Source: Ignavibacteria bacterium
GTDB lineage: Bacteria > Bacteroidota > Ignavibacteria > Tepidaquicellales > Tepidaquicellaceae
Direction: 5' to 3'
Length of the DNA stretch: 64,000 nt
Assembly: GCA_016929695.1 (NCBI GenBank)
Contig: JAFGII010000051.1
Coordinates: 62,001-126,000 of the forward strand
Numbering within the stretch: position 1 is the first letter of the stretch; every line of letters begins with the position of its first letter. The position numbers and the translations under genes were made by a program. Shown piece by piece: positions 5,407-58,189 of the stretch. The notes beneath the pieces are model-generated. The model made no database searches and was not told the DNA's origin. It worked only from the letters and a program-made list of their open reading frames with translations.

Positions 5407-6018
5407 ATGAAAAAAATTACATTACTAATTTCAATCCTTGCAGTTGCACTGTTAATACACAGTTGTTCGGTATATAATGCCATCACAAATGCACAGAGAC
5501 TTAAATTTAAACTGGGTTCCGTTGACGGATTCAGTCTCGCCGGTGTAAATCTGAAAAGCATATCCAGCATAAACAACCTAAGTGCGATGGATATAATAAA
5601 ATTAACATCCGCATTTGCAAAAAACGAAATGCCTGCAAACTTTACATTAAATGTACTTGCAAAGAATCCCAATGACGGAACAGGCGGAACAAAAGAATCA
5701 TCTGCTCTGATAAAAAATCTTGACTGGAGATTATTGATAGACAACACAGAGACAATCAACGGAGCGGTTCAGAACATCAATGTACCCGGCGTGGGACAGG
5801 AAACAACTATCCCTGTCGGGATATCACTTGATTTATTCAAATTTTTCAGCAGCAGCGGATATGAGGACTTAATTAATCTGGCGCTTGCATTAGGGGGACA
5901 GAACGGCTCATCTTCACGTCTGTCTCTAAAAGTCAAACCAACAGTTGAAACATTTCTCGGACTGATGACTTACCCGGGTGAAATTACAGTAATCGACAAG
6001 GAATTCAGAGACCAGTAA
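5407..6018 (+). CDS. LEA14-like (LEA type 2) lipoprotein
   Basis: A 203-residue lipoprotein: signal peptide with lipobox ending 'LLIHSC' (Cys20), then a beta-sandwich-like region. The alternation 'FTLNVLAKNPND' followed by 'LDWRLLIDNTETINGAV' matches the WHy/LEA_2 pattern, in which a conserved N-P pair follows the first strands. It should be anchored on the outer side of the inner or outer membrane. Function of this family in bacteria is not established. The start is followed by the typical 'MKK' of exported proteins here. Confidence 0.65.
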   Translation: MKKITLLISILAVALLIHSCSVYNAITNAQRLKFKLGSVDGFSLAGVNLKSISSINNLSAMDIIKLTSAFAKNEMPANFTLNVLAKNPNDGTGGTKESSALIKNLDWRLLIDNTETINGAVQNINVPGVGQETTIPVGISLDLFKFFSSSGYEDLINLALALGGQNGSSSRLSLKVKPTVETFLGLMTYPGEITVIDKEFRDQ

Positions 6019-6072
6019 AATCAATTAATGATTTGAAAAAAAATTATATTTAGTGTATCTTAATAGTTCTTT

Positions 6073-6146
6073 GGGCGATTAGCTCAGTTGGTTAGAGCAC
6101 TTCGTTTACACCGAAGGGGTCTGAGGTTCGAATCCTTAATCGCCCA
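6073..6146 (+). tRNA. tRNA-Val (anticodon TAC)
   Basis: Full cloverleaf: 7-bp acceptor GGGCGAT/ATCGCCC, D arm GCTC...GAGC, anticodon stem CTTCG/CGAAG with loop TTTACAC (anticodon TAC, valine), 5-base variable loop, and T arm with TTCGAAT. Discriminator base A at 6146. The CCA end is not encoded (CAC follows), so it is added by the CCA enzyme. Confidence 0.97.
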
Positions 6147-6487
6147 CACTCCAGTAGCTAGTTGACAGTAGTAAGAGTTTTTTTAAAAGCTAATTATAGA
6201 ATATAGTTATCGAAGGGGGAAGAATGTCAGAGGGAACGGGAGAAGCAGGAGAAGTGGCAAAAGTTTGCAAGATACAAATATAAAAAGAAAATCCGTATAC
6301 ATTCGGAAAAGAAAGAATACCGGACATAAAAACTCCGGAGAATTTCGTCTTTTAACATTTAGAATTTAAACGGATTGTCCCTTTCGTTTGTTATTGAATA
6401 ATGAAACAGGTATTAGCATATTATCATAAATCAATAATCGGTTACTTTTATTAAATTCTTATATTTTAAAAATTTAAATAAATTGTT
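6147..6487. other. Intergenic region after tRNA-Val
   Basis: 341 bases without a gene. The first part holds three heptamer units of the CAGTAGT type (6152-6172), and purine-rich 'GGGAGAAGCAGGAGAAG' at about 6236-6254 looks like a worn piece of the same family. The rest is AT-rich with no open frame of note; it should contain the aminotransferase promoter. Confidence 0.5.
6152..6172. repeat. Heptamer array fragment (CAGTAGT type)
   Basis: Three adjoining 7-base units, CAGTAGC, TAGTTGA and CAGTAGT. The same units recur at 20311-20359 and, on the other strand, at 53375-53493. Confidence 0.5.
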
Positions 6488-7642
6488 ATGAAATACGCAA
6501 AAAGAATGGCGAATCTCGGAACTGAAACAGCATTCGAGGTATTAGCCAAAGCAAAAAAACTTGAAGCAGAAGGAAAGAGCATCATCCACCTTGAAATCGG
6601 AGAGCCGGATTTTGACACTCCTGCGAATATAAGCGAAGCCGCAATAGATGCACTGAAAAAGGGATTTACGCACTACAATCCCTCACCCGGATTGCCGGAA
6701 CTGAGACAGACTATAGCGGATTACATGTCAAGAACACGCGGATTAAATTTTATTCCTGAAGAAGTTGTAATGATGCCGGGCGGAAAACCGGTAATGTTTT
6801 TTGCAATACTCGCACTTGTTGATGAAGGAGACGAAGTAATATATCCGAATCCCGGATTCCCGATATACGAATCAATGATAAATTTCATAGGCGGCAAAGC
6901 AGTACCAATTCCATTAAAAGAAGAAAAAGGTTTTGCATTTGACATAGATGAATTCAAAAAGTTAATCACCGACAAAACGAAGATGGTTATAATGAATACA
7001 CCGCACAATCCAACCGGCGGAGTATTGACAAAAGACGATATATTAAAGATTGCGGAAGTACTGAAAGACAAGGACATCTGGATACTGAACGACGAGATAT
7101 ACAGCAGATTAATATTTGAAGGCGAGCATTTCAGCATTGCACAGGTTGACGGATTCAAGGAAAGAACGATAATATTAGACGGATATTCAAAATATTACGC
7201 AATGACAGGATGGAGAGCAGGATTCGGTGTAATGAACAAGGACCTTGCCCCGCACATTGCGAAACTCGTAACTAACAGCGTATCCTGCACTAACACATTC
7301 GTACAGAAAGCGTGTATAGAGGCGCTGACAGGTCCGCAGGATTCCGTTGACAAGATGCGTGAAGAATTCATGGCAAGAAGAGAAATCATTATTGAAGGTT
7401 TGAATACAATTCCGGGATTTTCCTGTATAATGCCGCACGGAGCATTTTATGCATTCCCGAATATATCGAAGACGGGCTACAAGTCGAAAGATTTGCAGGA
7501 CCATCTGCTGTACAAGGCAGGTGTTGCTTCATTAGCGGGAACATCATTCGGCGCTTACGGAGAAGGATATCTGAGGTTCTCTTATGCAAATTCCAGAGAT
7601 AATATCAAGGAAGCGATTAAGAGAATAAAGGAAGTAATGTAA
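6488..7642 (+). CDS. Class I/II aminotransferase (aspartate aminotransferase-like)
   Basis: A 384-residue PLP enzyme of fold type I. The Schiff-base lysine is Lys235 in 'GYSKYYAMTGWRAG', with the SKxxxxxGWRxG signature of aminotransferase subfamily I. 'NTPHNPTGG' (170-178) supplies the Asn that contacts the ring, 'NDEIYSRL' the Asp for the pyridine nitrogen, and 'LRFSYANS' near the C-terminus the Arg for the substrate carboxylate. It transfers the amino group between an amino acid and a 2-oxo acid; aspartate or alanine/aromatic donors are both possible. A rho-independent terminator follows at 7662-7696. Confidence 0.85.
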   Translation: MKYAKRMANLGTETAFEVLAKAKKLEAEGKSIIHLEIGEPDFDTPANISEAAIDALKKGFTHYNPSPGLPELRQTIADYMSRTRGLNFIPEEVVMMPGGKPVMFFAILALVDEGDEVIYPNPGFPIYESMINFIGGKAVPIPLKEEKGFAFDIDEFKKLITDKTKMVIMNTPHNPTGGVLTKDDILKIAEVLKDKDIWILNDEIYSRLIFEGEHFSIAQVDGFKERTIILDGYSKYYAMTGWRAGFGVMNKDLAPHIAKLVTNSVSCTNTFVQKACIEALTGPQDSVDKMREEFMARREIIIEGLNTIPGFSCIMPHGAFYAFPNISKTGYKSKDLQDHLLYKAGVASLAGTSFGAYGEGYLRFSYANSRDNIKEAIKRIKEVM

Positions 7643-7661
7643 TTTAAAAAACAGAGAGCAG

Positions 7662-7696
7662 AAAACCCGTATGAAGTGATTTTGTACGGGTTTTTT
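7662..7696 (+). terminator. Rho-independent terminator of the aminotransferase gene
   Basis: Arms AAAACCCGTA (7662-7671) and TACGGGTTTT (7685-7694) around a 13-base loop, running into six T's (7691-7696), 20 bases after the stop codon. Confidence 0.8.
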
Positions 7697-7710
7697 ATAG
7701 ATATTAGACC

Positions 7711-7755
7711 GCAGAAAACGCTGAACAACTGAAACTCGATGAATACAAGCATTAC
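7711..7755 (+). repeat. 45-bp interspersed element, copy 1
   Basis: Aligns without gaps to 27336-27380 and, for its first 35 bases, to 22812-22850. Sub-units are 9, 8, 9, 9 and 10 bases; the copies share the closing 'ATACAARCATTAC'. See also the copy list at the other two sites. Confidence 0.55.
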
Positions 7756-8148: not shown

Positions 8149-9792
8149 ATGATAACTGATTATTTAATTGTAGGGAGCGGAATTGCAGGATTATCACTTG
8201 CACTTAAATTAAGTGAATTAGGCAAAGTAATCATAATAACAAAGAAACGCAAAGCAGAGTCCAACACAAACTATGCACAGGGAGGAATTGCGTCTGTACT
8301 TGGAGAAGACGATAATTTCGAAATGCATATAACCGACACGATAGGTGCAGGCGGAGGATTATGCAAATACGAAACGGTTGAAAAAATAGTAAAAGAAGGA
8401 CCGGTATCAATTAATGAATTAATTGAACTGGGTGTAAGATTTACGAAAGAAAACGGCAAACTGAAACTCGGAAAAGAAGGCGGGCATACAAGAAACAGAA
8501 TTGTACATGCGAAAGACTTGACAGGCAAAGAAATTGAGCGGGCGTTGCTGCACGATATAGCAAAAGAGAAAAACATCAGTGTACTTGAATACTGGTTTTC
8601 AATAGACCTGTTAACTCACAGAAACATAAAACCCGAACTAACGGGAAAGTATAAGAATAAAAAAGTATGTTATGGAATTTACGCTTATGATATAAAATCC
8701 CTTAAAGTTGAAAAAATAATAGCCGGAAAAACCATAATTGCAACAGGCGGACTGGGGCAGGTTTATTTACACACGACCAATCCTGCAATAGCAACAGGAG
8801 ACGGCTTTGCAATGGGATACAGGGCAGGATGTGAACTTGTAAATATGGAATTCGTACAGTTTCATCCGACATCTTTATATGAAAAGGAGATTGAAGATGA
8901 TACACAGGTGTTTTTAATTTCCGAGGCAGTAAGAGGTGCGGGTGCAGTTCTAAAGACAAAAGACGATAAGGAATTCATGCACAAATACGACAAACGGAAA
9001 TCGCTTGCCCCCAGGGACATCGTAGCTCGTGCAATTGACAACGAGTTAAAAAAACGCGGCGAAAACTTTGTTTATCTGGATTTATCAGCGATAGATAAAG
9101 ACAACATAAGAAATAATTTTCCGAACATATACGAACAATGTTTGAAACGCGGTATAGACATTACGAAAGAAATGATACCGGTTGTTCCTGCGGCACATTA
9201 TGCCTGCGGAGGAATCAAAACAGACCTGGAGGGAAAAACAAACATCAAGAATCTTTATGCCTGCGGAGAAGTAACGATGACAGGGGTTCACGGTGCCAAC
9301 CGGCTCGCATCAAATTCATTACTCGAGGCGGTTGTCTTTTCCGATGCGATTTATAATTCAATTAAGAATGAGAAGTCCTACAGAGAGGGAAATAACAGCA
9401 ATCTCAAGGAAATACATAATGCCATAATGAACTGGGATGATAAAGGAACAGTTAATGCAGAAGAATGGATATTAATCAGGCATAACAAAAGGGAAATCAA
9501 AGAGATAATGGGAGATTACGTAGGAATCGTCAGAAATTCTTACAGACTAAAACGGGCGCTGAGACGAATAAAAATGATGAAGGATGAAATCAAGGAATTC
9601 TATAAAAAGACAAGAGTTAATGTCGAATTACTCGAATTACGCAATCTTGTCACAGTTGCATATATAATAATAAAATCAGCAATGAAACGAAAGGAATCGA
9701 GAGGACTACACTATATGCTTGATTATCCTGAACGAGATGACAGACATTATTTAAAAAACACAATAATAGTAAAAAGGCTAAACAATAATTGA
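8149..9792 (+). CDS. nadB: L-aspartate oxidase
   Basis: A 547-residue FAD enzyme that oxidises L-aspartate to iminoaspartate, the first step of de novo NAD synthesis. The dinucleotide motif 'VGSGIAGLSLALKLSELG' opens the protein. 'NTNYAQGGIASVLGEDD' and 'DTIGAGGGLC' are characteristic of NadB within the succinate dehydrogenase flavoprotein family, as are 'EFVQFHPTSL', 'ISEAVRGAGAVL' and 'GVHGANRLASNSLLE'. The C-terminal helical domain is present, so the length is normal. nadA and nadC are not in the window. The stop overlaps the TTG start of the next glycosyltransferase by 4 bases. Confidence 0.93.
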   Translation: MITDYLIVGSGIAGLSLALKLSELGKVIIITKKRKAESNTNYAQGGIASVLGEDDNFEMHITDTIGAGGGLCKYETVEKIVKEGPVSINELIELGVRFTKENGKLKLGKEGGHTRNRIVHAKDLTGKEIERALLHDIAKEKNISVLEYWFSIDLLTHRNIKPELTGKYKNKKVCYGIYAYDIKSLKVEKIIAGKTIIATGGLGQVYLHTTNPAIATGDGFAMGYRAGCELVNMEFVQFHPTSLYEKEIEDDTQVFLISEAVRGAGAVLKTKDDKEFMHKYDKRKSLAPRDIVARAIDNELKKRGENFVYLDLSAIDKDNIRNNFPNIYEQCLKRGIDITKEMIPVVPAAHYACGGIKTDLEGKTNIKNLYACGEVTMTGVHGANRLASNSLLEAVVFSDAIYNSIKNEKSYREGNNSNLKEIHNAIMNWDDKGTVNAEEWILIRHNKREIKEIMGDYVGIVRNSYRLKRALRRIKMMKDEIKEFYKKTRVNVELLELRNLVTVAYIIIKSAMKRKESRGLHYMLDYPERDDRHYLKNTIIVKRLNNN

Positions 9793-18280: not shown

Positions 18281-18307
18281 TGATTGGATGATTGGATAAT
18301 CGGATGG
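18281..18307. repeat. Octamer array, TGATTGGA type (short)
   Basis: TGATTGGA, TGATTGGA, TAATCGGA in exact 8-base register, 24 bases after the stop of the T9SS cargo gene and just before a hairpin of family ACTCAnCCGATGA. Confidence 0.5.
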
Positions 18308-28577: not shown

Positions 28578-28613
28578 TTTCTCATCCGATGAATAAGTTC
28601 ATTGGATGAGAAA
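28578..28613. repeat. Hairpin of the ACTCAnCCGATGA family, intergenic
   Basis: TTTCTCATCCGATGAA, loop TAAG, TTCATTGGATGAGAAA: 16 paired positions, one G-T. It lies 3 bases beyond the mnmE stop codon. On the mnmE strand it is not followed by a clear U-run, so its role as terminator is uncertain. Confidence 0.65.
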
Positions 28614-28615
28614 TT

Positions 28616-30040
28616 TCACTTTCCGATGCAAAAGTTCTCAAATATATGATTTAAAATTTCATCGTTTGTGAATTCGCCGGTGATTTCACCGAGTGACTGA
28701 ATTGCATTACGAAGGTCAAGTGAGATGAATTCACCCGACATTCCTTTATCTATGGATTCAATTGATTTTTCAAGTGATTCGATGATTTTTTCGAGGCAGA
28801 TTTTGTGGCGTGTATTCGTAAGTACAAGCAGACCTTTTTTATCAAGGTTAACTGAATAGCGGAATTTTTCCGTCATCTTGTTTTTTAAATTTTCAATGGT
28901 AGAGAGCTGGTAGATGGAAATACTGAGTGATTGAATGATTGAATGATTGAATGATTGGATAATTGGATGATTGGGTGAAAGGTCGGATTTGGAGAAGCAT
29001 AAAATACTTTTTTCAGGATTGAATTCCTTTTTGTAGTAATCAAGACTTTCTTTGATTTCTTCTTCAGAGCCGGTGCTGTCAATCAGATAGAGTATGAGGT
29101 CTGCTTCTTTAATTCTCTCATAAGTGCGCCTGACTCCCTCGGTTTCCAGTTCGTCGTAACTGAATCTCAGTCCCGCAGTATCTATCAGGTTAAACAATAT
29201 TCCGTTGATTACTATATTTTCCTGAATATAATCGCGCGTAGTACCGGGAATATTGCTTACGATAGCACGGTCAGAACTCAGAAGGAAATTAAACAGAGAA
29301 GATTTCCCGCTGTTAGGTCTGCCTGCAATGACGAGATTGATACCGTCGCGGATTACCTTGCCTGCTATGTAGGTCGAAATTATCTGCAGAAATTTTTCCT
29401 TTAATTCAATAATTTTCTTTCTCAGTTCTTCTTTCTTTACAAATTCGATATCCTCTTCTGCAAAGTCGAGTTCGAGTTCAACAAGAGAAATTACGTTTAC
29501 TAAATCTTTTCTGACACCTGAAATAAATTCCGAAAGTGAACCTTCGAGTTGTGCAATTGATGATTTATGCGCATCTTCGGTTTTCGATTTAATTAAATCG
29601 GCTACCGCCTCTGCCTGAGATAAGTCAAGTCTGCCGTTCAGGAATGCACGTTTAGTAAATTCACCGGGTTCAGCATGGCGGACACCCTTTGATAATATTA
29701 GACTCAAAATTTTACGTGTGTTCAATACTCCGCCATGTGAAGAGATTTCGACTATATCTTCACCCGTATATGAATTTGGTTTTTTGAAAATTGATATTAG
29801 AACCTCGTCAATCAGTTCTTCACCGTCGTATATATAACCGAAATGAATTGTATGGGAATTAACCTCTATGGTGCTAAAGGTTTTTTTACTCATCCGATGA
29901 GCTTTGTTCAGGGGATGAGTTTTTTTGAAAAATATTTTTTCTGTTACGGCAAATGCATCAGCACCGCTGATTCTGATGACGGAAATTGCGGATTCCGTTA
30001 ATGCAGTTGAAATTGCCGTTATTGTATCATTTAAATTCAT
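28616..30040 (-). CDS. mnmE: tRNA modification GTPase MnmE with embedded repeat elements
   Basis: A 474-residue GTPase that with MnmG modifies U34 of certain tRNAs. N-terminal folate domain starts 'NDTITAIST'; G domain has G1 'GRPNSGKS' (240-247), G2 'GTTRD' (266-270), G3 'DTAG' (287-290); the C-terminus is the family's 'FCIGK'. Three oddities: G4 is 'SKSD' (350-353) rather than NKxD; residues 356-371, between G4 and G5, are encoded exactly by six octamers of an otherwise intergenic repeat and read as 8-residue periods 'FNHSIIQS'; and residues 41-51 are encoded by a hairpin also found between genes. The frame is intact, so it is probably expressed. A permease gene ends 4 bases upstream. Confidence 0.93.
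   Translation of the reverse strand: MNLNDTITAISTALTESAISVIRISGADAFAVTEKIFFKKTHPLNKAHRMSKKTFSTIEVNSHTIHFGYIYDGEELIDEVLISIFKKPNSYTGEDIVEISSHGGVLNTRKILSLILSKGVRHAEPGEFTKRAFLNGRLDLSQAEAVADLIKSKTEDAHKSSIAQLEGSLSEFISGVRKDLVNVISLVELELDFAEEDIEFVKKEELRKKIIELKEKFLQIISTYIAGKVIRDGINLVIAGRPNSGKSSLFNFLLSSDRAIVSNIPGTTRDYIQENIVINGILFNLIDTAGLRFSYDELETEGVRRTYERIKEADLILYLIDSTGSEEEIKESLDYYKKEFNPEKSILCFSKSDLSPNHPIIQSFNHSIIQSLSISIYQLSTIENLKNKMTEKFRYSVNLDKKGLLVLTNTRHKICLEKIIESLEKSIESIDKGMSGEFISLDLRNAIQSLGEITGEFTNDEILNHIFENFCIGK
28928..28975. repeat. Octamer array inside mnmE
   Basis: Six exact 8-base units (TGATTGAA three times, TGATTGGA, TAATTGGA, TGATTGGG). Total 48 bases, 16 codons of mnmE (residues 356-371). 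Same family as 53275-53330 and 58024-58087. Confidence 0.85.
29888..29920. repeat. Hairpin of the ACTCAnCCGATGA family inside mnmE
   Basis: ACTCATCC (29888-29895) pairs with GGATGAGT (29913-29920); left side shares ACTCATCCGATGA with 28580-28592. 33 bases, 11 codons (residues 41-51), flanked on both sides by T runs on the plus strand. Confidence 0.75.
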
Positions 30041-52142: not shown

Positions 52143-53281
52143 AAATAGCAATAGTATGTTATCCGACTTACGGCGGCAGCGGGGTTGTGGCAACGGAACT
52201 GGGAAAGTTTCTGGCACTCCGCGGTCATGAAGTTCATTTTGTATCTTATGCAATTCCGTCGAGACTATCGGTTTTTATTGATAATGTATTCTATCACGAA
52301 GTGGAAATGTACAATTATCCGTTGTTCGAATTTCCTCTTTATTCGATTGCACTCGCAAGTAAACTTGTAGAGGTTGTCAAATTCAACGAAATAGATTTAA
52401 TTCACGCTCATTATGCAATCCCTCACGCTACAAGTGCATATCTCTCACGTGAAATTATTAAATCAGAACTGGACTGCAAGAAAAATATAAAAGTAGTTAC
52501 TACTTTACACGGAACTGACATAACACTTGTTGGACTTGAGCCGTCTTTTCTGAACACAATGAAATTCAGTATAGAGCAATCAGATGGTGTTACAGCTGTA
52601 TCAAATTTTCTGAAAGATAAGACAAAATCTTCATATAATATAAGAAATGAAATTGAAGTTATACCGAATTTCATAGACACAAATAAATACAGCCGCTCCG
52701 AATCGGAGGAACTCAATAACGTTAAAAAACATATTGCGCCATCGGAGGAAAAAATCGTAACCCACACTTCAAACTTCAGACCTTTAAAGCGTGTTCAGGA
52801 CGTAATAAAGATATTCAAGGAGATAAAAAAGAAAGTCCCTTCAAAATTAATGTTAATCGGCGACGGACCCGAGAGAAGCGATTGTGAAAGATTGACCAGA
52901 GAACTCGGAATTTCTGATGATGTAAAATTTATGGGTAAACAGGATTCAATTCCCGACTTATTATCGATTTCTGATCTATTTTTGATACCTTCTCAGTCTG
53001 AAAGTTTCGGACTATCGGCACTTGAAGCAATGAGCTGTTCCGTTCCCGTAATCAGTTCAAGTATCGGAGGATTACCTGAACTGAACTTGCACGGCAATAC
53101 CGGATACATAGCGGAAATAGGAGATATAGACAGAATGGCAAAGTACAGTATAGAAATATTATCAGACGAAAAAAAATATAATATATTCAGCAGAAATGCA
53201 AGAAAACGTGCGACGCAGTTTGATTCGGATAAAATCATAATGCAGTATGAAAATTTTTACGGCAAAGTTCTGTGTGATTGA
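52139..53281 (+). CDS. bshA: N-acetyl-alpha-D-glucosaminyl L-malate synthase
   Basis: A 380-residue family 4 glycosyltransferase that joins GlcNAc to L-malate, the first step of bacillithiol synthesis. 'IVCYPTYGGSGVVATELGKF' and 'HFVSYAIPSRL' are specific to BshA; 'HAHYAIPHATSAYLSREI', 'TTLHGTDITLVG', and 'IPSQSESFGLSALEAMSCS' complete the GT4 pattern with the ExFGxxxxE nucleotide-sugar site. It ends 'KVLCD' with a TGA that belongs to an octamer array. bshB and bshC are not in the window. Confidence 0.88.
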   Translation: MKIAIVCYPTYGGSGVVATELGKFLALRGHEVHFVSYAIPSRLSVFIDNVFYHEVEMYNYPLFEFPLYSIALASKLVEVVKFNEIDLIHAHYAIPHATSAYLSREIIKSELDCKKNIKVVTTLHGTDITLVGLEPSFLNTMKFSIEQSDGVTAVSNFLKDKTKSSYNIRNEIEVIPNFIDTNKYSRSESEELNNVKKHIAPSEEKIVTHTSNFRPLKRVQDVIKIFKEIKKKVPSKLMLIGDGPERSDCERLTRELGISDDVKFMGKQDSIPDLLSISDLFLIPSQSESFGLSALEAMSCSVPVISSSIGGLPELNLHGNTGYIAEIGDIDRMAKYSIEILSDEKKYNIFSRNARKRATQFDSDKIIMQYENFYGKVLCD

Positions 53282-53330
53282 ATGATTGGATGATTGAATG
53301 ATTAGATGAATAAATGATTGAATGATTGAA
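53275..53330. repeat. Octamer array across the bshA stop
   Basis: Seven units in exact 8-base register (TGATTGAA, TGATTGGA, TGATTGAA, TGATTAGA, TGAATAAA, TGATTGAA, TGATTGAA). The first unit contributes the last residue and TGA stop of bshA. Confidence 0.85.
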
Positions 53331-53374
53331 TGTCAGGTTTATTGCACAAAGGATAATGTAAGCCCTAACATGCC

Positions 53375-56616: not shown

Positions 56617-58023
56617 ATGAAAAAAGGCGATGAACTTGATTTAAAAATTCTCTCGCTTAACAGCGAAGGTGCCGGAATTGCTAAAACGGAGGAAGGATTA
56701 GTAGTATTTATAAAAAATACCCTTCCGGGAGACATAATAAGAACAAAAATTACAAGAAAGAAAAATAATTTTGCGGAAGGCAGTCTAACGGATATTCTGA
56801 CCGAATCCCCTTTCCGCATAAAGCCGCAATGCGATATATTCGGCGTATGCGGCGGATGTAAAATCCAGAATTACCAATATGATAAGCAACTGGAATATAA
56901 AACTGAAGTTACGCGGGATGCTTTTAAGAAAATCGGAGGATTCGAAAATATCGAAATTCCGGGAGCAATCGGATGCAAAGAAACATATTTTTACAGGAAT
57001 AAAATGGAGTTTTCGTTTTCAGACGATAAATGGTTTATGAGTAAAGATGAAAAAACAAATGACAGGTTCGCACTTGGACTTCACATTCCGAAATTTTATT
57101 CCAAGATTATAGATGTTGAAGACTGTAAACTCCAATCGGAAATTTCCAACGGAATTTTAAATTTTACAAGAGAATTTTTTAAATCAAGAAATGCAAGTAT
57201 ATACAATACGCACACTCATACCGGTTACCTGAGATTTCTGGTTATCAGGCAAAGCAGAAATACGGACGATTTAATGGTGAATCTGATTACAAACAGTTAT
57301 GATAAAAAAATCGCAGGTGAATATGCAAAAGAACTGCTTAATAATTTTCCTTCCATTACAACTATTGTGAATTCCACAACAGAAAGAAAAGCACAGGTTG
57401 CGTTTTCCGAGAAGGAATATGTCCTACACGGTGAAGGATTTATATATGAAATTTTGTCAAATAACGGCAGGCAGTATAAATTTAAAATATCGCCGAATTC
57501 ATTTTTTCAGACGAACACATCGCAGACTGAAATTTTATACAAGACAGGACTTGAGTTTTTACAACCGCGATCTAATGATTCCGTTCTTGATTTATACTGC
57601 GGTGCGGGTTCGATATCAATATTTACGTCTAACCTTGTAAAGAAAGTTACCGGAGTGGAAATAATAAAGGATGCCATTGATAATGCAAATGAAAATGCAT
57701 TAATTAATTATGTTACGAATGTTAATTTTATTGAAAGCGATATTAAAGACTTTATAAAACAACTGAATTTGACAAATTGTGAATTTAACAAAGTTATCCT
57801 TGACCCCCCGAGAGCGGGATTGCATCCGGATATTTGCAGGATTTTATCTGAAACAAACTTTAAAAAAATTTTGTATATAAGTTGTAATCCGGGCACGCAG
57901 GCACGGGATTTGCAGATAATATGTTCCAATAATAGATACAGAATCGAGAAAATTCAGCCTGTGGATATGTTTCCGCAGACATATCACGTTGAGAATGTGT
58001 GCTCGTTAGTTGGTAGTGGTTAG
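56617..58023 (+). CDS. 23S rRNA (uracil-C5)-methyltransferase, RlmD/RlmCD type
   Basis: A 468-residue TRAM-domain methyltransferase. TRAM at residues about 1-60 ('LDLKILSLNSEGAGIAK'). A [4Fe-4S] set lies in 'CDIFGVCGGCKIQNY' plus a fourth Cys in 'DVEDCKLQ'. The SAM domain has 'VLDLYCGAGSISIF', and the catalytic Cys is in 'ILYISCNPGTQARDL'; 'VILDPPRAGL' is the DPPR motif. It methylates uracil in 23S rRNA (position 747 or 1939); which one is not clear. The gene ends against an octamer array. Confidence 0.9.
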   Translation: MKKGDELDLKILSLNSEGAGIAKTEEGLVVFIKNTLPGDIIRTKITRKKNNFAEGSLTDILTESPFRIKPQCDIFGVCGGCKIQNYQYDKQLEYKTEVTRDAFKKIGGFENIEIPGAIGCKETYFYRNKMEFSFSDDKWFMSKDEKTNDRFALGLHIPKFYSKIIDVEDCKLQSEISNGILNFTREFFKSRNASIYNTHTHTGYLRFLVIRQSRNTDDLMVNLITNSYDKKIAGEYAKELLNNFPSITTIVNSTTERKAQVAFSEKEYVLHGEGFIYEILSNNGRQYKFKISPNSFFQTNTSQTEILYKTGLEFLQPRSNDSVLDLYCGAGSISIFTSNLVKKVTGVEIIKDAIDNANENALINYVTNVNFIESDIKDFIKQLNLTNCEFNKVILDPPRAGLHPDICRILSETNFKKILYISCNPGTQARDLQIICSNNRYRIEKIQPVDMFPQTYHVENVCSLVGSG

Positions 58024-58087
58024 TTATTGGATGATTGGATTATGGGGTGATTGAATGATTGAGTGATTGAATGATTGGATGATTGGG
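58024..58087. repeat. Octamer array, eight units
   Basis: Eight 8-base units in exact register (TTATTGGA, TGATTGGA, TTATGGGG, TGATTGAA, TGATTGAG and so on) starting the base after the rlmD-like stop. Confidence 0.8.
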
Positions 58088-58149: not shown

Positions 58150-58189
58150 CGATTGGATGATTGAATGATTGGGTAATTGAGTTATTGGT
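58150..58189. repeat. Octamer array, five units
   Basis: CGATTGGA, TGATTGAA, TGATTGGG, TAATTGAG, TTATTGGT in exact register, 43 bases before the porX start. Confidence 0.7.

Follow-up and report, generated by a model that had tools for sequence, protein, structure and literature searches.

The mnmE gene of an Ignavibacteria bacterium carries six units of an octamer, read in frame inside the G domain of the protein, whose other copies are dispersed in the genome. None of the MnmE homologs aligned has this array. The octamer also enters at least one other protein-coding gene, and its copies at gene 3' ends have a strong orientation bias. These observations are very probably accounted for by a repeat, TGATTGRA, which was gained or amplified in this lineage, partly replaced the loop between motifs G4 and G5 of MnmE and survives there as an inert linker. 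The window, the whole stretch of 64,000 nucleotides analysed, belongs to the single assembly that forms the material of this study, which was compared to one genome per species. Its features relevant here are the following.

28616..30040, minus strand: mnmE, intact, coding 474 aa, the sole full-length copy in the genome
28928..28975, plus strand: array of six TGATTGAA-type octamers (TGATTGAA three times, TGATTGGA, TAATTGGA and TGATTGGG)
29891..29918: imperfect hairpin of 28 bp, CATCCGATGAGCTTTGTTCAGGGGATGA, in mnmE codons 41-50
28583..28609: copy of the hairpin just downstream of the mnmE stop (stable RNA hairpin, z -4.2)
53275..53332, plus strand: octamer array in TGA sense at the bshA 3' end, starting in the last bshA codons and supplying the stop codon
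58024..58087, plus strand: octamer array in TGA sense directly after the rlmD stop, with GTTAGTGG-type sequence before it
58150..58189, plus strand: octamer array in the same intergenic region as the preceding one
18281..18306, plus strand: degenerate octamer array of about three units that overlaps no ORF of at least 60 aa

The octamer array and the hairpin in mnmE

The array directly follows the G4 motif of MnmE, SKSD (residues 350-353). Residues 356-371 are the translation of its minus strand, PNHPIIQSFNHSIIQS, with residue 356 at window positions 28973-28975 and so on down to residue 371 at 28928-28930. A preliminary description of this DNA had placed six octamers in frame at 28928-28975, coding for 16 residues of the G4-G5 stretch. 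They are confirmed by TRF (6.2 copies of an 8-mer at 28924-28973, score 72), by a pattern scan and by the codon map, which agrees to the exact residue. The pattern scan detected 19 two-unit octamer matches in the 64-kb window versus 0.64 expected in shuffled sequences (largest value 4), and a chance origin of these matches is excluded.

One strand of a pure octamer array codes for FNHSIIQS, in rotation, in all three frames and is free of stops, while no frame of the opposite strand is without a stop; computation on pure arrays reproduces what had been described in this respect. The term frame-neutral, also given to the array, applies to any frame entering it but not to the exit, where the frame is set by the number of units. 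With one or two units more or fewer, reading would leave the array in another frame and the predicted product would be truncated, at 379 or 387 aa. Such an effect, together with the presence of three identical units side by side, would suit a contingency locus in which slippage by 8 bp, not a multiple of 3, switches mnmE on and off. This role is quite improbable: the perfect adjacent units are only three and the remaining ones degenerate, mnmE is a housekeeping gene and not a surface or adaptation gene, and octamer arrays are found also at many gene ends, where switching would be meaningless.

All 58 other genomes searched gave a match to the MnmE query, some of the matches being partial genes or paralogous GTPases; 29 of these genomes, from the genus, family, order and class of this bacterium, provided complete MnmE proteins for alignment. 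Neither the array nor its residues are present in any of the 29 homologs, two congeners included, and the condition named beforehand as refuting, the same residues in relatives that have no octamer arrays, did not arise. The compared G4-G5 segment measures 43 aa in this genome and 40 aa in the congeners, with a range of 32-55 aa over the whole set, for a net gain of about 3 residues, and the loop appears tolerant, even hypervariable, in length. Insertion and replacement are not cleanly separable because MnmE is only about 63-65% identical to the proteins of the two congeners; the alignment presents the entry of the octamer more as a replacement than as a clean insertion. The earlier proposal that a repeat invaded or replaced a tolerant loop gains support from the 29 homologs without the array, from the length variability of the loop and from the restriction of the octamer to this lineage.

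The G4-G5 loop of one relative (G014) features a KTNEG-type tandem expansion that is independent of the octamer. Slippage being a general growth route of short tandem repeats, the array of mnmE could likewise have arisen in place on a local seed and merely resemble the intergenic arrays. This origin is very unlikely, as the unit in mnmE is the octamer dispersed in the genome (221 near-matches to a 2.75-unit pattern and none to the reversed control) and the loops of the congeners contain no octamer-like seed.

A second dispersed repeat, the 28-bp hairpin, is located in the same gene. It folds stably (z -6.5) and adds 8 residues to MnmE at a position where 29 of 29 aligned homologs have a gap. 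The copy at 28583-28609 is followed, on the mnmE strand, by a U-rich stretch. The element (27-28 bp, CATCCGATGAnC..GnTCATCGGATGA) is possibly terminator-like and has 35 copies in the sequence examined, that of mnmE being the only one in an ORF. At up to two mismatches it is absent from the congeners and from all other family genomes searched, and related hairpin matches were found in five genomes of the order. Families of short tandem repeats reportedly occur within one functional gene elsewhere, the host there being an RNA gene.

The presence of two different dispersed repeats might indicate that this lineage can do without mnmE, which gathers repeats on its way to decay. Such relaxed selection is unlikely. 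MnmE retains an intact frame, intact G motifs and the carboxyl terminus FCIGK, which has the C-[IV]-G-K signature; the protein matches TIGR00450 over its full length (396 bits, cut-off 252.6), with a full-length match above cut-off also to NF003661; the partner gene mnmG is present in the genome; and both intrusions preserve the frame at sites that vary among homologs. An assembly or binning artefact, as could be suspected in a fragmented draft with several long arrays at contig ends, is extremely improbable for mnmE. Its 48-bp array lies in the interior of a 177-kb contig and in frame within an intact gene, the best matches of the protein in the search of relatives' genomes are the two congeners, and the estimated contamination is 0.18.

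Dispersal and orientation of the octamer

The dispersed unit is TGATTGRA, 8 bp long. At no more than one mismatch it has 132 matches in this genome, and a search of 43 further genomes from the family and order gave neither a match nor an octamer array. Elsewhere in the class, a few octamer matches turned up in two genomes. An even draw of 396 genomes of the phylum yielded six carriers, the present genome included, with none for the reversed control. Named carriers are Dyadobacter, with many loci, Pedobacter, Bacteroidales MAGs, Psychrobacter, Glaciecola and others. Judged from these genome comparisons, the octamer is a lineage-specific dispersed repeat. A literature search on the octamer string returned no match, and none of the literature found links Dyadobacter to such repeats.

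The 1.55 Mb of genome examined contain 40 merged arrays, few of them inside conserved genes, and both the number and the lengths of the arrays are underestimated because several sit at contig ends. Arrays at or near the ends of contigs C5, C20, C23, C41, C43, C89 and C96 include some of the longest. Composite arrays are found at loci L191, L198, L204 and L209 and at window positions 57990-58087: (GTTAGTG)n often passes directly into (TGATTGRA)n, and CTGTCTC-type heptamers come after (TGATTGRA)n, in an order that is apparently constant. In Dyadobacter and relatives, six intergenic regions (L102, L122, L131, L132, L146, L182) have two opposed octamer arrays each, and their pairing could fold read-through transcripts into long hairpins.

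The arrays at 53275, 58024 and 58150 had been described as lying between genes. All three are present, but those at 53275 and 58024 are gene-end arrays and not simply intergenic. BshA and RlmD are both full length when compared to their families, and therefore show no visible truncation by the arrays. For arrays no more than 20 nt from a gene 3' end in the other named genomes, TGATTG lies in the sense of the gene in 34 cases against 4 (P = 6e-7), counting as genes the ORFs of at least 100 aa and with related Dyadobacter loci that are not fully independent; some of this excess is mechanical, since no frame that enters a TGA-bearing array can continue through it. In 11 of the gene-end arrays of these genomes the stop codon is provided by the array itself. 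When only TAA or TAG stops lying before the array are considered the sense orientation still prevails (12:3, P = 0.035). The present genome has the TGA-bearing sense in 8 cases against 1 within 20 nt of 3' ends, bshA and rlmD among them. All 7- and 8-mer families taken together display only a slight bias, with ratios of 4:1 at -25 to -1 and 7:5 at 0 to 20 nt, so that no repeat but the octamer is credited here with an orientation bias.

An array provides, with its first TGA, the end of a radical SAM protein of AmmeMemoRadiSam type (L199:10315-11190). The protein lacks about 60 positions of the family model (286 of 349 aligned), and its truncation by the array is possible.

Partial replacement of the MnmE loop by a dispersed repeat would involve several steps. 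After gain or amplification of TGATTGRA, ectopic or microhomology-mediated synthesis may have brought a copy of array sequence from another genomic site into mnmE, and slippage may then have adjusted or extended the copy; neither a mobility enzyme nor a target-site signature came to light. A product would survive only if it presented its open strand to the gene and its net length could be divided by three. The array of mnmE would thus owe its persistence to the lack of stops on the strand read by the gene, to a net length change in whole codons and to the tolerance of the loop, while the opposite orientation ends reading frames and copies in that orientation would survive mainly at gene 3' ends. 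The peptide coded by the array is probably a tolerated, inert linker, presumably at the protein surface and devoid of a dedicated function.

Repeats inside other proteins

A penicillin amidase (L206:10123-10162) has an octamer array near residues 237-249, in a variable spacer that precedes a conserved GSN; the array is read in frame and is absent in 13 relatives. The uvrC gene (L199, ORF 5718-7715) features an array of GTTAGTG-family heptamers at 7306-7342, likewise in frame, within the region coding the RNase H domain. UvrC is here about 28 residues longer than in most of nine relatives, and the additional stretch contains QPLTTNHQPLTT. Most of the nine relatives have the D(I/L)G...NIIGLAK sequence uninterrupted, and by this comparison the heptamer array is a clean insertion. 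In a Melioribacteraceae MAG (L126), NHSIIQS is found inside an O-antigen-ligase-like ORF, just before the Wzy_C domain.

Many T9SS C-terminal sorting domains have tandem repeats of 7 or 8 bp near the turn that follows the 'TIKFSIP' strand, such as HLVTLSPCHLVTLSP. They occur at L196 (four ORFs), L198, L204, L262, L267 and L295 and apparently belong to different repeat families. Heptamers of CAGGAGT/CAGAAGACAG type code for part of two T9SS-secreted peptidases, M14 and S8 (L194:5083-5116 and 8680-8718), where they sit in the loop FEVQK...WTKIGFV.

MnmE, UvrC and penicillin amidase are close to natural experiments in which non-coding repeat DNA becomes protein within conserved enzymes, with the empty state available in relatives. 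In addition, the counts from independent genomes reveal an association between the reading-frame polarity of a repeat and the location of its copies. A broader view is tentative and somewhat doubtful: the mutually unrelated octamer, heptamer and hairpin repeats of this lineage might enter the interior of conserved domains in frame often enough to supply new loops, the polarity of the arrays sorting the survivors, with the stop strand at gene ends and the open strand in loops. Stretches of this type may pass for errors in gene callers and alignment filters.

Relation to known repeat systems

The asymmetry between a stop strand and an open strand, whose novelty had been implied for the octamer, was already published for heptamer repeats. 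TAACTGA repeats are found in Beggiatoaceae, Cyanobacteria and some Bacteroidetes (MacGregor 2015, PMC4679880). Their forward strand has stops in all frames and the reverse strand codes for the open periodic peptide LSVISYQ; copies in stop-strand orientation overlap ORF ends, those in open-strand orientation lie within ORFs, mostly at protein ends, and most arrays are positioned just upstream of start codons (PMC4679880). TAACTGA and the octamer share a dispersed, mainly non-coding distribution as direct repeats in many copies, the occurrence of stops in all frames of one strand with an open periodic peptide on the other, and a patchy spread over distant taxa. The units differ, 7 bp in TAACTGA and 8 bp in TGATTGRA, and the octamer works alike without being a TAACTGA member. 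Unlike TAACTGA, the octamer and heptamer repeats described here are found at gene 3' ends and in the interior of conserved domains (the G domain of MnmE, the RNase H domain of UvrC).

GGGAATC-type heptamers of Xanthomonas and Nostoc lie on the sense strand and are enriched near stop codons (Rehm 2015, PMC4692102). They and the octamer are alike in being dispersed short tandem repeats that are mostly non-coding, but GGGAATC-type repeats form G-quadruplexes and occur preferentially in four units (PMC4692102), while the octamer has no such G-tracts. Rickettsia palindromic elements are dispersed elements of about 150 bp that form in-frame inserts in housekeeping genes (PMC10969869). The 28-bp hairpin of mnmE resembles them in outline and is far shorter; a palindrome of ~150 bp with a conserved peptide ORF characterizes those elements, compared to 48 bp for the array and 28 bp for the hairpin.

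The repeats in mnmE represent an intrusion of a known kind and not a new system. What they add to the repeats of PMC4679880 and PMC4692102 is the octamer itself, repeats that have penetrated to the interior of conserved domains, and the presence of two unrelated repeats in one gene.
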